DNA of 20,197 bases from a virus: the IMG/VR virus record IMGVR_UViG_3300017748_000204, positions 1 to 20,197 of that record; one strand, 5' to 3'. The notes beneath the pieces were generated by a model. The model ran no database searches. It had not been told where the DNA came from and saw only the letters and a program-made list of their open reading frames with translations. Of the stretch, positions 1 through 17,429 are shown one piece after another. Both the position numbers and the translations under genes were made by a program. Numbering within the stretch: position 1 is the stretch's first letter; each line of letters opens with the position of its first letter.

Positions 1-1717
1 ATTCCGGCCCTCTTTCTCCGACAATTGACATATTACCTGTTGCAGTTCCTCCTGTGCTAAAGAAATCAAATAAATCCTTAAACTTATGATATAGTTTCTT
101 TACTATTAATGGAACTAAACCTATTATTAATAGAGTTAAAGCAACAGGCCAACCAAAGATTAAACCAACTACTACGGCAACAAGCATTAGAATTTTACCA
201 GCATTCTTTTGTATATCGGTTGTCCAAGTTTTAATATTAAAAGCCCATTTAAAGAATTTTTTAACACCTATCACAACCATACTGATTACCATTGTTCCCA
301 ATCCTATAACGACAGTCAAGGCCAAACTTAAAACAAACTGAACAACACCGATAGCAATATCTAACACTCCATTTATTATTTTCCACAAATCACCATTTAC
401 TATTCCTGAAAATACTTCTTTAATTCCATCCCAAATACTTGCTAATGCATTTACCATTATTGCTATAAATGGAGCAAGAACTGATTTAGTAAATTTCCAC
501 GCTTCCCCTATTGTTTTTGAAATAAAAACCACTATTAGAGAAATTATAGAAATATAAACTATTGTCATTACTAAAAATGTCATTAATGGTCTAAATACCA
601 TTTTAATCATATCAAAGGCTTTTCCTATCAATTTGAATGGAGACTTTAATACCATTATTCCTGCTCTTGTCAAATTCCCAAGATTAAAAATACCTTTATT
701 TGAAAAAAACATTTTTAATCCTGCCCTGCCTTTTACTATCGCATTACTATTCCAAAGTTTTTTTATGTTTCTTGCGTTAAGTATTCCACCGCCTTTATCC
801 TTTCCCAACGGATTCATAGATTTTCCAAATCTTGTAAAAAAGCCTTTAAGACCACTACCCATTCCATCTTCTCGTATTCCCTTTACTACTTTTTTTTGGG
901 CGGATTCTTTTTCAACTGCACTTTGTCGCAATTTAATTTTTTCTTCTTTTTCTTTTATAAAAGCAGGAGAGTTAAGAAGGTTAAAATCATTTTTAGCCGC
1001 TTCATTCATTTGTTCAACTTCTTTAGCCGCATTTGCTCTTATGTTCGTTAATTTCCTTAATTTATTTCGTTCATCTTTATATTCTTTATCTGAACCAAAA
1101 ATAGTAAAGGCTTTTTTAGTTGCTTTTCCGACATTAAGTTTACTAAGAAGTTTAAAAGAAGATGTAAAGATATTATTACTGGTTTTTGTCGCATCTCCCG
1201 CTTCTTGAATCATTTTCTTTATTGACCTATAACCGCCACCTAATGTATTTAATCCCGTTGCTAATTTATTAACGATTCTAAACATTCCAGGCGGAAAAAA
1301 CCCATAAAGAACTCTTCTTGCCGCACTTGCATGAAAACCTAATATTTGGACTTCTTCTTTAGTAGAAGTCATAAATGTCGCTAAATACTCAAAAGTCGTT
1401 CCACCAGCCTTTCTATAATCTAAAAGAGTCTTAATTCCTAAATTAAATTCATTATTATTCATTTTTTGAACTGCTGTTTGTATTTTAGTCCTTGTTGAAA
1501 ACCCTTTAACTAATTCTACTTGTTCTCTTAATTCTTTTTTATTTAATTTCTTTAAATTAATTTCTTCTTTTTCTTTTTTAATTACCTTGTCTAAAGACTT
1601 TAAGTAATTGTTTTGCGTGTTCATTAAACTCAATATTTGGCTTTCAAAAGACTTAACTTCTTTTTTAAGCGTAGCAACCTTTTTTGTAATTTTAGGAAGC
1701 GGCACTTGTTCAGTCAT
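1..1717 (-). CDS. Tape measure protein, N-terminal 572 residues (gene runs off the left edge)
   Basis: The frame is open from an ATG at 1717 to the window edge, so 572 codons are visible and the stop lies outside. The start has an SD (AGGTGA) overlapping the stop of the gene before. The first ~100 residues are lysine/glutamate-rich and helical. The middle has more charged helices, and three strongly hydrophobic stretches lie near residues 372-400, 448-481 and 505-537. The last visible residues are a glycine-rich stretch followed by VGERGPE, a motif I know from tape measure proteins of many siphoviruses. A tape measure sets tail length inside the tail tube, and its hydrophobic segments are thought to act at the membrane during DNA entry. 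Its place directly after the frameshifting chaperone pair is the usual siphovirus order. The call is firm; total length is unknown. Confidence 0.88.
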   Translation of the reverse strand, partial: MTEQVPLPKITKKVATLKKEVKSFESQILSLMNTQNNYLKSLDKVIKKEKEEINLKKLNKKELREQVELVKGFSTRTKIQTAVQKMNNNEFNLGIKTLLDYRKAGGTTFEYLATFMTSTKEEVQILGFHASAARRVLYGFFPPGMFRIVNKLATGLNTLGGGYRSIKKMIQEAGDATKTSNNIFTSSFKLLSKLNVGKATKKAFTIFGSDKEYKDERNKLRKLTNIRANAAKEVEQMNEAAKNDFNLLNSPAFIKEKEEKIKLRQSAVEKESAQKKVVKGIREDGMGSGLKGFFTRFGKSMNPLGKDKGGGILNARNIKKLWNSNAIVKGRAGLKMFFSNKGIFNLGNLTRAGIMVLKSPFKLIGKAFDMIKMVFRPLMTFLVMTIVYISIISLIVVFISKTIGEAWKFTKSVLAPFIAIMVNALASIWDGIKEVFSGIVNGDLWKIINGVLDIAIGVVQFVLSLALTVVIGLGTMVISMVVIGVKKFFKWAFNIKTWTTDIQKNAGKILMLVAVVVGLIFGWPVALTLLIIGLVPLIVKKLYHKFKDLFDFFSTGGTATGNMSIVGERGPE

Positions 1718-1722
1718 AAAAT

Positions 1723-1950
1723 TCACCTAAGACTTTGTAATTTTGATTGCGAGTCGGAACTAATCTTCTCTATTTCTTCCGCCTTGATTGTTTCTATCTC
1801 GCTGTGGATTATAAGCAAATCGCTTACTAAACTCGCTGGCATCCTATAAATTTCTAATGGGCTAATCGCTAAAGCCTTAGCGAGCGTATAAACAATAACG
1901 AGAGAAAGTCGTTTGGGGTCATGTCTTTTTCCCCTAATAACTTCTCTCAT
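1723..1950 (-). CDS. Tail assembly chaperone, T-like frame (made mainly as a -1 frameshift extension)
   Basis: This 75-codon frame starts with an ATG whose A is the last base of the previous stop codon (TAATG). No well-spaced SD precedes it: the nearest G-rich run ends about 19 nt upstream. The frame is open back to a slippery heptamer at 1956-1962 in the gene before. A -1 shift there would read CGA TTA ATG and continue in this frame, giving a fusion of about 196 residues (119 + 77). The product is helical, with an acidic second half that includes PLEIYRMPASLVSDLLI. In lambda-like phages the fused GT protein links the tail tube subunit to the tape measure during assembly, and the gene position here fits that role. 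Independent translation from the ATG at 1950 is possible but looks weak. Confidence 0.75.
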   Translation of the reverse strand: MREVIRGKRHDPKRLSLVIVYTLAKALAISPLEIYRMPASLVSDLLIIHSEIETIKAEEIEKISSDSQSKLQSLR

Positions 1951-1962
1951 TAATCGTTTTTT
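1900..1962 (-). promoter_or_regulatory. -1 programmed ribosomal frameshift signal
   Basis: The heptamer AAAAAAC occupies 1962-1956 and is in the correct register, read as GAA AAA AAC, so it fits the X_XXY_YYZ rule. After a 7-nt spacer (1955-1949) comes a hairpin: GAGAGAA at 1948-1942 pairs with TTCTCTC at 1906-1900. Inside it GTT (1941-1939) can pair with AAC (1913-1911) and GGGG (1934-1931) with CCCC (1918-1915), with bulges. An SD-like AGGGG at 1974-1970 lies 7 nt upstream of the heptamer and could act as a stimulator, as in dnaX. The zero-frame stop follows one codon after the heptamer. All parts are seen directly; the pairing was done by eye and efficiency is unknown. Confidence 0.85.
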
Positions 1963-2312
1963 TCTTCATCCCCTTCAAGTGTTGAGAAAGGATTAGGTAA
2001 TATTTCCTTTAGTTGATTACCCACATAAGGAGTTAATCTTAGAATGTCAATTGCTGAAAGATGCGGTTCTGTTTTAACCACAAAATTTTCAACCATAAAT
2101 TTAAACATGGCATTCAAATCAATATCCATGTCTTGATTCTTAGCATCAATTTTCATCATGCTATTCATCGCTTTATCAACCTCAAGCCAAGTTGGTTCTT
2201 TAACCCAAATCTTGAGGTATTCTTCTTTATCTTCTGCAACTTTAATATAGTGCATCTTAGGCTCTTGTAGTGCAAAAAGCACCGACTTATCACTTACTAT
2301 TTTTTTATCCAT
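1950..2312 (-). CDS. Tail assembly chaperone, G-like (zero frame)
   Basis: This is a 120-aa protein. I chose the ATG at 2312 because it has a strong SD (AAGGTGGAT) at good spacing; the TTG upstream at 2336 lies before that SD. The sequence includes the segment YLKIWVKEPTWLEVDKAM, a pattern I associate with tail chaperones of siphoviruses, and ends in a short acidic tail coded by the slippery run. The gene lies between the tail tube and tape measure genes, the classic place for lambda gpG-type proteins, which coat the tape measure and bring in tail tube subunits. Identification rests mainly on position, size and the frameshift signal at its 3' end; sequence similarity alone is modest. Confidence 0.75.
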   Translation of the reverse strand: MDKKIVSDKSVLFALQEPKMHYIKVAEDKEEYLKIWVKEPTWLEVDKAMNSMMKIDAKNQDMDIDLNAMFKFMVENFVVKTEPHLSAIDILRLTPYVGNQLKEILPNPFSTLEGDEEKND

Positions 2313-2477: not shown

Positions 2478-4460
2478 TCACCCTTGTAAAATCCAATTAG
2501 TATTAGCAACAATGCTTGAACATTTTCTCGGCATAACTGTTGCTTCAATTGTCACCGCACCCTTATTATCGGGAATGGTGACATTAGCAGAACTTAAGAG
2601 ATAATCTGTTAAAGTAATTGTAAAGTTTTCATCGGGGTTTCCTTGTTTAGCAAAAGTCAATTCAATATTGTTTGTTCCTGCCGCTTGTTCTGCTGAATCT
2701 TTATTATCTAATAATTCTCTAAAAAGTCTGTTATCAGTAATCAAAGCAGTAAAACTAATTTCATAGGTTCTTTGAGCAGGTATAGCATCTTTTATGGATT
2801 TGCTTTGAGAACCTAAGAATCTCTTATCTTCTAATGAGTTATTCATATTCAAAGTAAAACTTGTTATCTTCAAGAAGTTTTCGCCAAAGATTGAGAAACT
2901 TCCACCGGAATAAAAGTAAGGTTCGTTAAAGGATTCTTGTTCCGTATTATAATTTATTAAAGATGTATTAGTGGCTTGACCGTTTCTTGCTTCATATACT
3001 GCATCAGTATTCGGCAGATGAACATTTCTTGTGTTTAGATTCATAGTCATTTTAACTTCTTCATTTTCATTAGCGGTTAAACTAATATCATTTACCATAT
3101 TTCCTCTTGCGATTCTAACAAAGTTATTATCTTCAAGAGCATCCGTTCCGGTTTTATAATGATTAGAAACTGCACCATCTAACTTACTAATGCTTTGTTC
3201 CAAAGCGAATGAAGGAAGAATATCTCCTTCCACTTCGGTAAAGGTATATCTAAACAAATTCACACCATTACTTCCGGAAGCCGTAGGAACAGGCACTATA
3301 TCCATATTTCCTGTTGCATCTCCTTCCATTAATGGAGGAACAATTTTATCTACGACTGTTCTGTAAATAATCGGCCCTTGAGCAAAATGACCCGAAGCAT
3401 CAATTAAAAATTTGTTATTAGTATTAGAGTTGCTTGTGGTTAATAAATCAGTTAAGGCCGCAGAACTTCCCGAAAAAGTAGAACCATCGCCCTTTTGAAA
3501 ATTAGAACAAGCACCTAAGAAATAATAAAACCAAGTCGGATGTGTAAGAACAAAAGCCAAACTTCCACCTGTTGCGTTTTCAGTTCCTTTATATTGGTAA
3601 GTCCAATTCCTTGAGCCACCTAAAGATAGATTCATTTGTTTCATTTCAACCTCAACATTAGGGAAAGTTCCTGTTTCTAATAGACCCAACCAATTGTCAG
3701 CAAGTAGTCTCTTATCTGTGCCGCTCTTAGGAGCAGGTAATGGAGAACCATACGATTTTAGAACAAAATAATGATTAGCCGTTCCTTCACTTAAAGAAGG
3801 AGTAAATTTAATTTGTGTAGCAGTATTAGAAGTCACTCTATGAGTTGAAACCAAAGCACCACCAGTAGAGATTTGCGCTCCTGTTTGTGTTCTAACAAGA
3901 CTTAAAATTGCACCATCTGTTGTAGTTGTTGCGGCTGAATTAGCACCGCCATGAGTATTTGTTATCGTGATTACTGCACCATTTCTAACTGCACTAATAT
4001 TAGAAACTGCATTAATTTCGGTAGTAATCAAAGCCGCAAATTCTTCTTTTGTCACTATTGCAGCATCGTGCATGACAATTTCAGTATTTCCATCTGCACC
4101 GTGAGAAGGAGCAGATGCACCATTAGTGGTGTCAAACCAAATAGCATGAGTAGAAGCACTTCCGCCAGCACTTGCTAAAACTGTAAATACCAAGTATTCA
4201 TTTACATAATCAGTTTTTAAATCACTTGTGAGAGTAAGAGTTGTTATTTCAGCAACATTAGCCGTTCCTGCGGTTGAATAAAATTCTAACATTGAACCTT
4301 CGTATAAGTTAGTTAATAAACTAAAATGCGCCATATCCGAATGTAAATCAACAGAAGTGTGTCCTGCTTGTGGATTAGCCGCACTTTTAATTCTAAAATC
4401 TAATTCCGGAACAAGGTTTAAACTTGCTCCACTTCCTAAAAATATGTCTCTATTTACCAT
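2478..4460 (-). CDS. Major tail tube protein, large, with inserted domain
   Basis: This 660-aa protein starts at an ATG preceded by GGGGAGAGAT. The C-terminal part (about 500-660) looks like a siphovirus tail tube fold: alternating beta strands, a stretch FGENFLKITSFTLNMNNSLE, an FTALITDNRLFRELLDN helix and a final strand set ending in NKGAVTIEATVMPRK. This resembles the Phage_tube_2 type, judged by pattern only. Common tail tube proteins have 200-300 residues, so this one is much enlarged. Residues ~86-200 look like an inserted Gly/Ala/Thr-rich beta domain of the kind that decorates phage structural proteins (IWFDTTNGASAP, then a helix, then VITITNTHGG). It follows the tail terminator candidate and precedes the chaperones, as expected. 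It should form the stacked rings of the tail shaft. Confidence 0.72.
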   Translation of the reverse strand: MVNRDIFLGSGASLNLVPELDFRIKSAANPQAGHTSVDLHSDMAHFSLLTNLYEGSMLEFYSTAGTANVAEITTLTLTSDLKTDYVNEYLVFTVLASAGGSASTHAIWFDTTNGASAPSHGADGNTEIVMHDAAIVTKEEFAALITTEINAVSNISAVRNGAVITITNTHGGANSAATTTTDGAILSLVRTQTGAQISTGGALVSTHRVTSNTATQIKFTPSLSEGTANHYFVLKSYGSPLPAPKSGTDKRLLADNWLGLLETGTFPNVEVEMKQMNLSLGGSRNWTYQYKGTENATGGSLAFVLTHPTWFYYFLGACSNFQKGDGSTFSGSSAALTDLLTTSNSNTNNKFLIDASGHFAQGPIIYRTVVDKIVPPLMEGDATGNMDIVPVPTASGSNGVNLFRYTFTEVEGDILPSFALEQSISKLDGAVSNHYKTGTDALEDNNFVRIARGNMVNDISLTANENEEVKMTMNLNTRNVHLPNTDAVYEARNGQATNTSLINYNTEQESFNEPYFYSGGSFSIFGENFLKITSFTLNMNNSLEDKRFLGSQSKSIKDAIPAQRTYEISFTALITDNRLFRELLDNKDSAEQAAGTNNIELTFAKQGNPDENFTITLTDYLLSSANVTIPDNKGAVTIEATVMPRKCSSIVANTNWILQG

Positions 4461-9560: not shown

Positions 9561-10229
9561 TCAATAATCTTTTATCATCGTCATTACGCCTCTATATACC
9601 ATTTCGGGGTCGGATTTTGCTGATACTATATATTTGAAACAAGGTATTCCCTTGTCGTTCAACTGTCTCATTCCATACTTAAAAGGTTCAAATATTTTAT
9701 GTTTGTCTATGGTTTGGCCTTCTTCTAATGGATATTTTTCTCCCCACATGTCATATTTATTAGCCCATATCCCGATAGCAATTGGATAATCCGATTCTCT
9801 TTTTCTTCTACCTGTTGGCCACAAATCCGATACAATAGTATCAACTAAAAATTTCCATGCTACTTGATGGTCTAAGTTTGCTTCGCTATCTAAGTGCCTA
9901 TGGTCTATCATAAAAATGATATATTTAACCCTGCGCTTTTGCATATCTTTTACCCATTCTTTCCAATAAATCGCTTCACCGCCTATGTCAGCACTTTTTA
10001 TTGTATGTGAATCACCATCAATCTTTACATTTTTTCTTGATGCTCTATTTAGTCCTACTGTTCTTTCATTAATTTGAGGAACTTCCCCTCTTGTTCTAAG
10101 TTGGTGACTTAATGTTGTTTTACCAACCATTGTAGAACCATACACTCCAAAATTAATAGCGTGAACTTTCTTCCAAAAACCAATAACTGCTTCGCCAACT
10201 AATATAGCAAAGCCTGTCATTAATGACAT
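9561..10229 (-). CDS. Arf/Ras-like small GTPase with N-terminal hydrophobic helix
   Basis: All five G motifs of the small GTPase superfamily are present. They are the P-loop GSTMVGKTT (31-39, Lys37), a candidate switch I Thr57, DIGGE (81-85), NKYD (157-160) and SAK (203-205). DxGG at switch II, rather than DTAG, is the Arf-like form; the residue after GG is Glu instead of the catalytic Gln, so hydrolysis may be slow or need a partner. The first ~19 residues (TGFAILVGEAVIGFW) form a hydrophobic or amphipathic helix, as in Arf proteins or the SRP receptor beta subunit, and suggest membrane attachment. The start is the ATG at 10229, just after the stop of a one-helix membrane protein; Met4 is an alternative. 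It is set in a run of virion genes, not a replication block. GTP binding is well supported; the role is unknown. Confidence 0.88.
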   Translation of the reverse strand: MSLMTGFAILVGEAVIGFWKKVHAINFGVYGSTMVGKTTLSHQLRTRGEVPQINERTVGLNRASRKNVKIDGDSHTIKSADIGGEAIYWKEWVKDMQKRRVKYIIFMIDHRHLDSEANLDHQVAWKFLVDTIVSDLWPTGRRKRESDYPIAIGIWANKYDMWGEKYPLEEGQTIDKHKIFEPFKYGMRQLNDKGIPCFKYIVSAKSDPEMVYRGVMTMIKDY

Positions 10230-11919: not shown

Positions 11920-13272
11920 TCACAGAAGGTTTGTTATTTTGCCTTGACCCTTGAAGTATGAACAACCCATTTCTCCCATTGTTCGGTAAAGAGCCTTGTT
12001 TCCAAGAGAACCGACACCGAATGGGTTTCCGTTTGAAATACCATCTTCAAAGTATTGAGTTGGTTTCATAACAGATAGCCACAAATGGTCTGTATCAAGG
12101 AAAAGCATATCACTAATCAAAGAAGAGTTTGTTCCTGTTGAAGTCATAGCAGCAACCGGAATCATTGGTATATCATAGTAAGTTGAAACTCTAAATCCGA
12201 CTTCTTGACCCTTTACGCCTCTTACTCCATTAACAGTTGGAACAATTTCCTTTCTATCCATGAATCTTTCTTGGGCTTGTAGCAAGTCCGAGATAGTTTG
12301 TAGAGTATCATATCCTGTTAGAATAACCTTTGGAGAACCACCAGCAACTCTTAGTCTTCTAATCATATCGTTTAGAACAGTTAGAGTTAATTGTCGTGCT
12401 TCTGCTGAAAGGTAGCCATCACCGAAAGAAACTTCGGAATCAAGATATTCATTTCCTGATGCACTTCGTAGTTTTCCATAAAGTGTATCAATTGCTTGGT
12501 CTGTTGCAGCACCTACAAGGTTTCCACCGGAGTCATCTGCTAATTCGGCAATTTCATCCGAGTTAGAAATAATCTTCAATAGAGAAGTATATCCTCTATC
12601 AATGGCATTTGCAGTAGTATATGCAGTTGTAGGAGAATAAGCCTCTAATGGCATAACAAGCATTTGATTTTGAACTTCAGCGTGATGCTTGCCCATATCT
12701 TCTCTTAGTTGCGCTCTAATATCGCCAATTCCATCATCAATAGAAGCCATTTCCATAGCCAATTCACTGAAAGAGAATTGATGTGCAACAATCTTAGGGC
12801 TTGTAAATAGTGTATCATATTCCGGTGCAATTGAAATCAAACCATCTGTATTTGAATCAAGACTTGCATTTTCCGGAACACCACCAAGACGGTCTGCTCT
12901 AAGTTGGTCATCACCATATAATGCGTCACTTAATCCAGTGTTGGATGCTTTGGTAATATCTAATTTGTTTCCTGCTCCGCCAGCCGGTCTTTTCTTTAAA
13001 ATTCTCCAACCACTTGATGAATAAGGTCTTTTTGAAATAACCGATAGTGCATTACATTCTCGGTTTAGCATAGACCATACTTTTTGGCCGTAAATCTTGT
13101 TGTAAAGATTTCCGTTAATGCCCGATGGTGTGCCTAATGCTCCATCGTGTGCAGTATGAATACCTGCTACTGTTCCTGCGGCCTTAAGCAATTGATTGCT
13201 AATATGGCCTGTTGCGCCTGTTCCATAGGTTTGTGCTTCTAAATCTGCTATTGTGTTAATATATCCTGACAT
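11920..13272 (-). CDS. Major capsid protein, HK97 fold
   Basis: This is a 450-aa protein. The ATG at 13272 has a strong GGAGGTTAT SD coded by the last residues of the protease gene. It follows protease-scaffold directly, the standard capsid block order. Features consistent with an HK97-type shell protein are an extended N-terminal arm, a helix with FSFSELAMEMASIDDGIGDI, a long spine-type helix (SAEARQLTLTVLNDMIRRLR) followed by PKVILTGYDTLQTISDLLQ, and a C-terminal DTDHLWLSVMKPTQYFED segment. The size suits a mature or cleavable shell protein; a scaffold domain is separate, in the preceding gene. Identity is based on gene order, size and fold pattern, and is confident. Confidence 0.85.
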   Translation of the reverse strand: MSGYINTIADLEAQTYGTGATGHISNQLLKAAGTVAGIHTAHDGALGTPSGINGNLYNKIYGQKVWSMLNRECNALSVISKRPYSSSGWRILKKRPAGGAGNKLDITKASNTGLSDALYGDDQLRADRLGGVPENASLDSNTDGLISIAPEYDTLFTSPKIVAHQFSFSELAMEMASIDDGIGDIRAQLREDMGKHHAEVQNQMLVMPLEAYSPTTAYTTANAIDRGYTSLLKIISNSDEIAELADDSGGNLVGAATDQAIDTLYGKLRSASGNEYLDSEVSFGDGYLSAEARQLTLTVLNDMIRRLRVAGGSPKVILTGYDTLQTISDLLQAQERFMDRKEIVPTVNGVRGVKGQEVGFRVSTYYDIPMIPVAAMTSTGTNSSLISDMLFLDTDHLWLSVMKPTQYFEDGISNGNPFGVGSLGNKALYRTMGEMGCSYFKGQGKITNLL

Positions 13273-14507: not shown

Positions 14508-17429
14508 CTAATTTTTAGCCGGAATTGACAATTTACTGTATTTATCTTCATATATATTCCATAAACCTTTATCGCTTTCTGTATCAGCAGGTTCTTGTTT
14601 ATATCCTGTCCAAGCAAGCCACATTTCTTTTCCTTCAACCTTGATTACTCTAAAATGCATCTTAGTTTCAAATTTATTACCTTTCAAGAAGTATTCATGA
14701 TAACCTTCTTTTTGGACACCTAACTCAATATCCCCTGCATCAACTACCTTTCCTCTTTCAACATTTTTAGCCACTTCTGCCGGATATTTACCTGCTGCAC
14801 CAAACAAATCAAACATTTCTTCTTGGTTATCTAAGTCAATAGTCCAAAATAAACTTTCATCTTCAAGTTTAATACCTAATGTTATATTATCATCTTCTCT
14901 TGAATATATTTTAAACAAACCCTTTCTATTTTCTTTTGGGGTTTTGTATTCTTTTAACATGGCGTATTTATCGGAAAATCCTTCACCAAATGAACATTGA
15001 TTATATTCATCTATCAGTGGTTTATCATCTTGATACTTTTCCTCCAAAAATTCCGTTACCAACCATTCACAATCCTCCCTCATTATAAATTTGGCATGCT
15101 CGGCCAACGCTTCTTCTAAAGAATCAAAATCACGATAATTGTTTCTTTCATTACCAAAATTATTTGTAAATTCTTTCCAAGAACCATATACATTTACTAA
15201 ATATTCAAGACTCTTTTTTTTCTTTTCAATAAGTTTATGTTTTAATTGAGTGCAACAATCACCCACCATATCTGCTTCAATAGCGATTTGTCCTTGTTCT
15301 TCTTCTTGTCTTTGTTCCTGTTTCACTCTTTGAATTAATTCTTGATTTTTAATTAAAAGTGATTTCTTAATCTCTTCTTCCTGCATAATTTTATCATCAT
15401 CGGCATGAAGTTTCTTATCTTTAATTGAAATGCCGTCTCTATTTTCCGCCCAATCTTTCAATTTAGTCTTTTTAGATTCTAATACATCTTCATAAATATC
15501 CTTATGCTTATCCTTCAAAAAGTCATGAACATCATTTACTGTCTTGTCGCCCATCGTTTTTAGATACTGAAAAATAGCAACCGTTAATTGACTTGCTTTA
15601 GTTTTCATTATTTCTTCTGCTTGGGCTTTCCACATATCCAAATCTGCCAAAGCATTCTTAGACATTAGATTATCTTCTTCAAAACCATAGATTACAAAGC
15701 CATTCATATCCGATTTCATGATTACATTTGTTTCACCATGTATATAATCAGTCAATTTAATTCCCTTTGTGAGTGCTTCTACCTTATAATTAAGTGATTT
15801 TTTAGTATCTTGTGATAGAAGTTCAAGAGTAATTAGTTTATCGGGGTGTTCAACTTCCGGTATTTCAATTACCTTTGCTGAAAATAAACTAAAGCCTTCT
15901 CCCTTTTTCTTAACTTCATCAACTTTAACTCTAACAATATCGCCGACATTAACGGCTACTTTAGTATTCAATGCTTTACCTACACCAAGATACTTTTTAC
16001 CATCAATTTCTTGTCCTTCCATATCTTCCGGAATTGGCCCAACGCCCACAGTATATGAATAAAGATTGCTTTTCGTTTTTTTCTTATCTAAAACTATTAC
16101 ATCTAAATCAACAAACTTCTTCCATTTAATCCATTTAGGGTTCTTTTTAGTTCCAATATAATATGTTGAAGTTGCGTCTTTAATAACAACTCCTTCGGAA
16201 GTGGGAATATCCATCATTTCTTTCGCATACTTTTCAACATCTTTTAGACTATCAGCCTGTCTTGTATCTTTTTTAGAAGGATAGGCGATTGCTTGATTAG
16301 ACTTCGATGAATAGTTATTGAATAAAATAGTCATTCTGTCTTCTAAATCTTCATCTGTTAATGTTTGAGATTCATGCCGAATAATATCAAACACATGACA
16401 CTTTAATTTAGCATCTTTGTATTTTCCTTTGAAAACATGAGCAATAGTATCTGCTCTATGTAGTGCATCATCACCGTCAAAAAGAATTAACTCTCCATCT
16501 AAAATACAATCCCCGTATTCTTTTTTCTTAAGTTCCTCAACCTGTTCTTTGCACTTATCAGTAATGTCTTTTTCATTGTAAGAATAAATTTTAACCGAGC
16601 CGTCTATTTTATGCAACTGTATTCTCATGCCGTCATATTTTTCTTGGACATACCAATTACCACTAAAGCCTTTTAGTTCATTAATATCATCTATCTCAAA
16701 TATTCTATACATTGGTTTATTAGGAACTATAAATTGAGAGATGGACTTTTCTGTTAATTCTTTTTGTGATTTCTCTAATCCTTCTATTTCTTTTAAATCT
16801 GTCCATTCTTTCTCTTCATGTTGAGAAAAGAAAATAAGTTCTAATAGTTCCATTCCTGCCTTTACTTTCGATTCAACCTTCTTTGAGTCTTTTCCATCAC
16901 CGTAATGCTCTATAATATAGAGGGCAATATCATCCGATTCAAGGTCAAGTCCAACAAGACCCTCCGTTATTGTGTCGGGTTGCATACCTTTAATGGCTAA
17001 AATGTCCGGAGATAGTGCTTTATTGTCGTCTCTTAGTGCATAATGAATGAATTTCACCATAGTTTCGGGATTATCTAACAATTCTTCAAGGACACTACCT
17101 TTGAACATTTCAGCGAAAGGGTCTGCAACTATTTTAGAAGAGTATCTAATGAGTTTTATTTTCTCAAACAAGTCTTTCGCTTCTCTTGATATTGGGTTTT
17201 TAACTTCTTTATTTTCTATTTCATCTTCATCAATAAAATTCCTTAACTCTTTACCTGCGGAATCTAATTCTTCATATGACTCCATGATTAAATCAACCGC
17301 TTTTCTCCAACGGCTTCCATATTCATCGGGGTCATGAACGGCTGATAAATAAGCGACTCTTGTTTTTTCAAAGAGTCTTAGTATTTCTTGAGAAGGTTGT
17401 TTATCCTTCTCAATAGAGCCAAGTTTCAT
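14508..17429 (-). CDS. ATP-dependent DNA ligase with long N- and C-terminal extensions, 973 aa
   Basis: The nucleotidyltransferase core is complete: motif I EKYDGMR with adenylated Lys264, motif III DGEL (311-314), IIIa VFD (346-348), IV SEGVVIK (411-417) and V KWIKWKK (432-438). An OB domain follows (about 440-530; VGDIVRVKVDEV). The enzyme seals nicks in DNA using ATP. Viral ligases usually have 300-600 residues. Here a ~235-residue helical N-terminal region, not clearly the usual DNA-binding domain, and a ~440-residue C-terminal region are added. The latter has a helical block (595-670), a coil, and a final part (about 826-945) ending YFLKGNKFETKMHFRVIKV then MWLAWTGYK, reminiscent of LigD phosphoesterase domains. 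The ATG at 17429 has AGGGAT upstream. It is embedded between virion genes rather than replication genes. Confidence 0.9.
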   Translation of the reverse strand: MKLGSIEKDKQPSQEILRLFEKTRVAYLSAVHDPDEYGSRWRKAVDLIMESYEELDSAGKELRNFIDEDEIENKEVKNPISREAKDLFEKIKLIRYSSKIVADPFAEMFKGSVLEELLDNPETMVKFIHYALRDDNKALSPDILAIKGMQPDTITEGLVGLDLESDDIALYIIEHYGDGKDSKKVESKVKAGMELLELIFFSQHEEKEWTDLKEIEGLEKSQKELTEKSISQFIVPNKPMYRIFEIDDINELKGFSGNWYVQEKYDGMRIQLHKIDGSVKIYSYNEKDITDKCKEQVEELKKKEYGDCILDGELILFDGDDALHRADTIAHVFKGKYKDAKLKCHVFDIIRHESQTLTDEDLEDRMTILFNNYSSKSNQAIAYPSKKDTRQADSLKDVEKYAKEMMDIPTSEGVVIKDATSTYYIGTKKNPKWIKWKKFVDLDVIVLDKKKTKSNLYSYTVGVGPIPEDMEGQEIDGKKYLGVGKALNTKVAVNVGDIVRVKVDEVKKKGEGFSLFSAKVIEIPEVEHPDKLITLELLSQDTKKSLNYKVEALTKGIKLTDYIHGETNVIMKSDMNGFVIYGFEEDNLMSKNALADLDMWKAQAEEIMKTKASQLTVAIFQYLKTMGDKTVNDVHDFLKDKHKDIYEDVLESKKTKLKDWAENRDGISIKDKKLHADDDKIMQEEEIKKSLLIKNQELIQRVKQEQRQEEEQGQIAIEADMVGDCCTQLKHKLIEKKKKSLEYLVNVYGSWKEFTNNFGNERNNYRDFDSLEEALAEHAKFIMREDCEWLVTEFLEEKYQDDKPLIDEYNQCSFGEGFSDKYAMLKEYKTPKENRKGLFKIYSREDDNITLGIKLEDESLFWTIDLDNQEEMFDLFGAAGKYPAEVAKNVERGKVVDAGDIELGVQKEGYHEYFLKGNKFETKMHFRVIKVEGKEMWLAWTGYKQEPADTESDKGLWNIYEDKYSKLSIPAKN

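Follow-up and report, generated by a model that had tools for sequence, protein, structure and literature searches.

In the 20,197-base IMG/VR record IMGVR_UViG_3300017748_000204, analysed over its whole length (positions 1-20,197, here called the window), the minus strand carries a junction of two reading frames that is very probably a -1 programmed ribosomal frameshift cassette of the lambda G/GT type, joining a pair of tail assembly chaperones (estimated probability about 0.93). The basis for this reading is the anatomy of the junction, its conservation, selection and covariation in a downstream stem, and the chaperone homology of the two proteins, all of which are documented below. The device itself is known, being classical in lambda and predicted in haloviruses; what is new is the virus group, which is abundant and provides unusually full comparative support.

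Anatomy of the junction and chaperone homology

The chaperone frames lie between the tail tube gene upstream and, downstream, a long ORF at the place expected for the tape measure gene, while the major capsid protein (MCP), a prohead protease and an ATP-dependent ligase are encoded farther off in the window. The features are as follows.

2478..4460 (-): tail tube protein, 660 aa (PF18906 Phage_tube_2, 1.6e-11; phrog_290, 2.5e-16)
1950..2312 (-): ORF1, G-like tail assembly chaperone, 120 aa, stop TAA at 1952-1950
1970..1974 (-): SD-like AGGGG, 7 nt 5' of the heptamer
1962-1956 (-): slippery heptamer A_AAA_AAC in the ORF1 register, one codon ahead of the ORF1 stop
1955-1949 (-): spacer of 7 nt, containing the last ORF1 codon GAT and the stop TAA
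1896..1952 (-): downstream hairpin, core outer stem 1949-1942 with 1906-1899, inner GGGG/CCCC
1723..1956 (-): ORF2, T-like part in the -1 frame, 77 codons plus a stop at 1725-1723
2..1726 (-): tape-measure-like ORF, cut by the window end, assigned by position and size
11920..13272 (-): MCP (phrog_24667, 9.5e-19; PF17236), used to place the virus

In 0-frame codons, the 3' end of ORF1 reads ...GAT GAA GAA AAA AAC GAT TAA. A preliminary description of this DNA had proposed a -1 link between two tail chaperone frames ahead of the tape measure gene, comprising the in-register heptamer, the 7-nt spacer, AGGGG 7 nt upstream, a 0-frame stop one codon past the heptamer and a -1 frame running on for 77 codons. 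All of these coordinates hold, and the link itself is supported by the conservation of several different slippery heptamers, the SD-like element, covariation and synonymous-site selection in the stem, the fixed -1 phase, the lack of ORF2 start codons in many relatives and PHROG matches for both proteins. The product sizes then given, ~120 and ~196 aa, agree with the lengths computed from the window sequence (120 aa for ORF1; 119+77 = 196 aa for the predicted fusion). Absent from that description was the TAATG at 1952-1948, in which an ATG of the ORF2 frame overlaps the 0-frame stop. The tape-measure-like ORF has no family match in Pfam or PHROGs, and a long ORF directly follows ORF2 in nearly all relatives (72 of 73 are long or cut by the locus end).

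By sequence comparison, both proteins match tail-assembly-chaperone families, the matches of the window itself being weak and those of other family members stronger. The tail assembly chaperone family phrog_25860 is matched by the ORF1 products of 46 of 53 family members (best E 2.3e-7; window 0.0018), and phrog_9001, likewise a tail assembly chaperone family, by the ORF2 products of 48 of 52 (best E 1.5e-6; window 0.0098). Pfam yielded no chaperone match for either protein, its UPF0738 matches falling under the cut-off, and tblastn of ORF1 against named phages gave no match. A structure model of ORF1 (pLDDT 82.6) was matched by Foldseek to the tail assembly chaperone of HHTV-2 (E 1.7e-6, TM 0.72), and Foldseek against the PDB returned nothing significant. 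VIA-align matches of the same model to YqbN (3klu, Z 6.3) and to a PICI protein (Z about 6) point weakly to a chaperone fold and are suggestive only.

Elsewhere in the window, a 222-aa protein with the small-GTPase motifs GSTMVGKTT and NKYD is encoded inside the structural module (9561-10229, minus strand) and has no match in Pfam, PHROGs or named phages. The ATP-dependent DNA ligase (14508-17429, minus strand) has 973 aa, with long extra regions flanking the ligase domain (252-437) on both sides; its sole named viral match is ANMV-1.

Conservation of the heptamer, the SD-like element and the hairpin

Seven scans of viral contigs provided 360 loci with ORF1, representing 155 distinct junctions. 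An in-register slippery heptamer with an open -1 frame is present in 151 of these (73/73 in the first-look set), the heptamer being AAAAAAC in 107, TTTAAAA in 26, AAAAAAA in 9, AAAAAAG in 7 and GGGAAAA in 2. Elsewhere in ORF1, in-register heptamers occur at 121 of 15,336 codons (~0.8%), and the combination found at the junctions exceeds chance. A phylogeny built from the ORF1 body implies at least 13 changes of heptamer type, or 5 by the class of the first three letters, with the +1-frame exception described below taken as one state. Both frames are kept without the -1 arrangement, a case that the preliminary description had named as counting against the signal, at only 4 of the 155 junctions, and the stimulatory elements are kept there.

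Reading in the -1 frame is blocked 6 nt ahead of the heptamer in 120 of the 151 junctions. In 65 first-look junctions, aligned over 92 columns without gaps, the distance from the heptamer to the conserved core of ORF2 is constant, whereas the 0-frame stop floats between 7 and 37 nt after the heptamer start; the downstream -1 phase is fixed. A constant distance combined with a floating stop indicates that a fused reading frame has been maintained. The -10/-13 difference seen in the heptamer-to-stop distance was dismissed as merely this floating of the 0-frame stop.

The SD-like element was scored by complementarity to GAUCACCUCCU, the assumed 16S tail. Complementarity peaks just upstream of the heptamer, at a mean of -10 kcal/mol, against a mean of -1.6 kcal/mol (sd 1.1) along the ORF1 body, and it is at or below -6 kcal/mol in 68 of 73 junctions. 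Codon choice follows the same pattern, as the Gly two codons ahead of Glu-Glu is encoded by GGG in 38 of 43 cases, whereas in the rest of ORF1 no Gly codon is used less often than GGG (14/96). The gene starts of the window also carry SD sequences (at or below -6 in 14 of 18, versus 11% of random places), and host ribosomes are therefore likely to rely on pairing of this kind. The element and the heptamer are 7 nt apart, a shorter distance than the roughly 10 nt of E. coli dnaX.

The outer pairs of the hairpin given in the preliminary description (1948-1942 with 1906-1900) and its inner GGGG/CCCC pairs are real, and RNAfold extends the stem, inner pairs included, to 1952-1896. The segment 1890-1975, whose folding had been suggested as a check along with the alignment of relatives, reaches -25 kcal/mol (z -4.38), a stability equalled by none of 200 shuffles. 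RNAalifold found no common structure for all 65 aligned junction sequences because the pairing register differs by one to four columns between subgroups; pair counts were therefore used instead, together with a null model in which synonymous codons are drawn at random while the ORF2 protein stays unchanged. Against this null, stability lay more than 2 sd beyond expectation in 62 of 73 first-look junctions (median z -3.5), compared with 12 of 146 control windows farther down ORF2, and in the larger set the hairpin exceeded it in 117 of 151 junctions versus 42 of 300 downstream controls. The signal is weaker in the TTTAAAA group, where 10 of 26 fall below z -2. The named outer stem covaries, with 77 cells changed on both sides against 26.7 in shuffles and every slid control lower. 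Among 28 sequences sharing one register, 37 cells are changed on both sides against 12.2, and 90% of cells pair, a proportion biased upwards because the subset was chosen by register.

Proposed mechanism, alternative readings and exceptional junctions

Slippage, its rate and the roles of the products as chaperones are what we infer from these observations. Most ribosomes would complete ORF1 and release the 120-aa G-like protein, while a minority would pause at A_AAA_AAC owing to the downstream hairpin and probably also because the 16S tail pairs with the AGGGG ahead of the heptamer. The paused ribosomes would slip back by one base and read 77 extra codons, producing the fusion of ~196 aa. If the lambda scheme is a guide, tape measure binding would fall to the G part, and recruitment of tail tube subunits to the T part of the fusion.

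When the window is taken alone, the TAATG overlap makes re-initiation a rival, in which ribosomes would stop at the TAA and restart at the overlapping ATG, so that a separate 75-aa ORF2 protein and no fusion would be made. Relatives offer some scope for such coupling, as an ATG lies within 10 codons of the heptamer in 43 of the 151 junctions, and any ATG, GTG or TTG in 83. In 67 of the 151, however, ORF2 has none of these codons before codon 15, so that independent initiation is not possible as a general route, and in many junctions the first ATG appears only at codon 38, within the conserved region. The SD-like element is also ~20 nt from the overlapping ATG, and coupling, which we consider improbable, would work without a slippery heptamer and without any constraint on the -1 phase. 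A joined frame could also arise in a fraction of the mRNA if RNA polymerase added or dropped A's in the A7 run (1962-1956 plus the preceding base), and runs of A6-A7 are indeed found in many relatives. T_TTA_AAA (26 junctions) and G_GGA_AAA (2), however, contain no long homopolymers and fit tandem tRNA slippage, and polymerase slippage usually requires longer runs. Such transcriptional slippage, for which there is very little likelihood, would not depend on a hairpin and a conserved SD-like element placed at ribosomal spacing.

The location of the heptamer in a Lys/Glu-rich tail encoded by AT-rich DNA may evoke a coding coincidence of a Glu-Lys-Asn tail, accompanying a decayed gene fusion or an assembly artefact. 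This explanation, whose probability is close to nil, is refuted by conservation: the same arrangement recurs across hundreds of contigs from many metagenomes, the identity of the heptamer varies while its slipperiness stays, and Asn outside the junction is mostly encoded by AAT rather than AAC (228 to 95). The -1 ribosomal frameshift is thus the preferred reading of the window.

At 4 of the 155 distinct junctions, ORF2 is in the +1/-2 frame. These occur at six loci (L210, L247, L251 and L257, plus L211 and L212) from six metagenomes, and the ORF1 tree requires two changes; the junction sequence is GAAGAAAAAAAGGATGATTA. The -1 frame ends there at a TGA immediately after the heptamer, and an SD-like AGGAGG, the A7 run and the hairpin are kept (-23.5 to -27.6 kcal/mol; synonymous z -2.0 to -4.0). 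Tentatively, these sequences may reflect a switch of the chaperone shift from -1 to -2 (or +1) ribosomal frameshifting within one virus family, a possibility to which we give less than even weight. A -2 slip would fully re-pair both Lys tRNAs, and a +1 slip or re-initiation at ATGATT are alternatives to it. The nearest precedent is the use of -1 or -2 for the same fusion in related genomes, as for the chaperone genes of phage Mu (-2) and the Trichomonas vaginalis viruses (-2 in TVV1, -1 in TVV2-4; PMC5009743); the -2 shift of Mu and TVV1 differs from the window's own -1 arrangement. The +1/-2 junctions are the novel residue of this analysis, possibly surprising to a specialist, and a switch, if true, would provide a natural comparison of -1 and -2 shifting by archaeal ribosomes.

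Virus group and comparison with known systems

On the evidence of its sequence matches, the virus belongs with the archaeal Caudoviricetes. The nearest named MCP is that of HCTV-1 (25.6% over 87%, E 6e-20), which its record places in the Druskaviridae; viruses of Methanofastidiosa and Methanomassiliicoccales are matched as well, and all MCP matches are archaeal. Nine of the ten long relatives checked have 87-97 kb, the tenth resembling two genomes joined, and all ten encode a PolB nearest to that of haloviruses. Magroviruses of Poseidoniales have a genome of ~90-110 kb, PolB and an ATP-dependent DNA ligase (PMC12999244). The description of magroviruses (PMC12999244, PMC10160649) is fitted by the PolB and size of the relatives and the ligase of the window, and the virus group is probably that of the magroviruses of Poseidoniales. 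No named magrovirus was among the MCP or PolB matches, in a collection searched without OR863078, and the host is therefore one that we infer. The archaeal host conjectured in the preliminary description thus gains support that is indirect throughout, from the HCTV-1-like MCP, the halovirus-like PolB and the 87-97 kb relatives.

A scan of genome contigs with ORF1 gave no match, and a scan with the MCP gave two contigs from one Maricaulis MAG (NZMJ01000024 and NZMJ01000101), whose MCPs are 86% and 60% identical to that of the window. These were rejected as host evidence, the contigs being viral, with a GC content of 0.35-0.36, and probably misbinned. tRNA genes, sought as a host clue, were absent from the loci scanned.

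In L271 (1293-4786) and L272 (119-3811), PolB is split between motif B and motif C into two ORFs ~1 kb apart, as it is in seven more of the ten long relatives. The gap between the two parts holds, in L272, a T5orf172-type (GIY-YIG-like) ORF; a group I intron was rejected as the cause of the split, with no Rfam match. Just upstream of PolB in L271 (4790-4846, minus strand) is a weak match to the archaeal C/D box RNA sR14 (E 0.014, below the gathering score). The 184,733-base record IMGVR_UViG_3300021958_000021 contains two different chaperone junctions (L016, L181) and two PolB sets ~91 kb apart, and apparently consists of two related viral genomes run together, either in assembly or as a tandem.

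Tail chaperone -1 frameshifts have been predicted in the haloviruses HCTV-1, HCTV-2, HCTV-5 and HVTV-1, according to PMC5009743 and PMC8211752, the former giving the heptamers as G_GGA_AAC in HCTV-1, A_AAA_AAC in HCTV-2 and G_GGA_AAG in HCTV-5. Like the window, these viruses have, ahead of the tape measure gene, two chaperone frames that overlap, with a predicted -1 shift at a heptamer. HCTV-1 is annotated in its record with a joined chaperone gene; the present analysis located G_GGA_AAC at its junction, preceded, as in the window, by an SD-like stretch (-7.2 kcal/mol). HCTV-1 differs in its heptamer and in the two further genes that separate its chaperone from its tape measure, and the halovirus chaperones have no significant tblastn match to the window proteins. 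What sets the present junctions apart from those of the haloviruses is the long hairpin, whose covariation was demonstrated across an entire virus group.

In lambda G/GT and other long-tailed phages, a short abundant protein is accompanied by a rarer -1 fusion (Xu, Hendrix and Duda 2004, as cited in PMC5009743). The window shares this gene position and this short-protein-plus-fusion logic, while sequence homology to lambda is undetectable by Pfam. At the lambda shift site, G_GGA_AAG, no strong SD or stem is known.

Chaperone frameshifts are also predicted in Hardycor1, as a -1 shift at G_GGA_AAT (PMC7911831), and in the HF1-group haloviruses, where the direction, unlike that of the window, is +1 (PMC7230728). 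In Saccharolobus solfataricus, fucA1 undergoes a -1 shift at A_AAA_AAT, at about 10% in vitro (PMC8211752); its A-rich heptamer and direction resemble those of the window, whereas it is a cellular gene with no tail function. The remark in the preliminary description that recoding in archaea is less studied accords with the 2021 review, in which archaeal -1 frameshifting comprised one experimentally shown case, in a cellular gene, and the halovirus predictions (PMC8211752). In the literature searched, of which coverage was incomplete, no report of such a frameshift in magroviruses or Poseidoniales viruses was found.

A marine, probably archaeal virus group thus carries a three-part signal, consisting of an SD-like element, interchangeable slippery heptamers and a covarying hairpin. 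Its more than 150 natural variants are usable to probe frame shifting by archaeal ribosomes, and could reveal whether the SD-like element and the hairpin stimulate these ribosomes as they do in bacteria.
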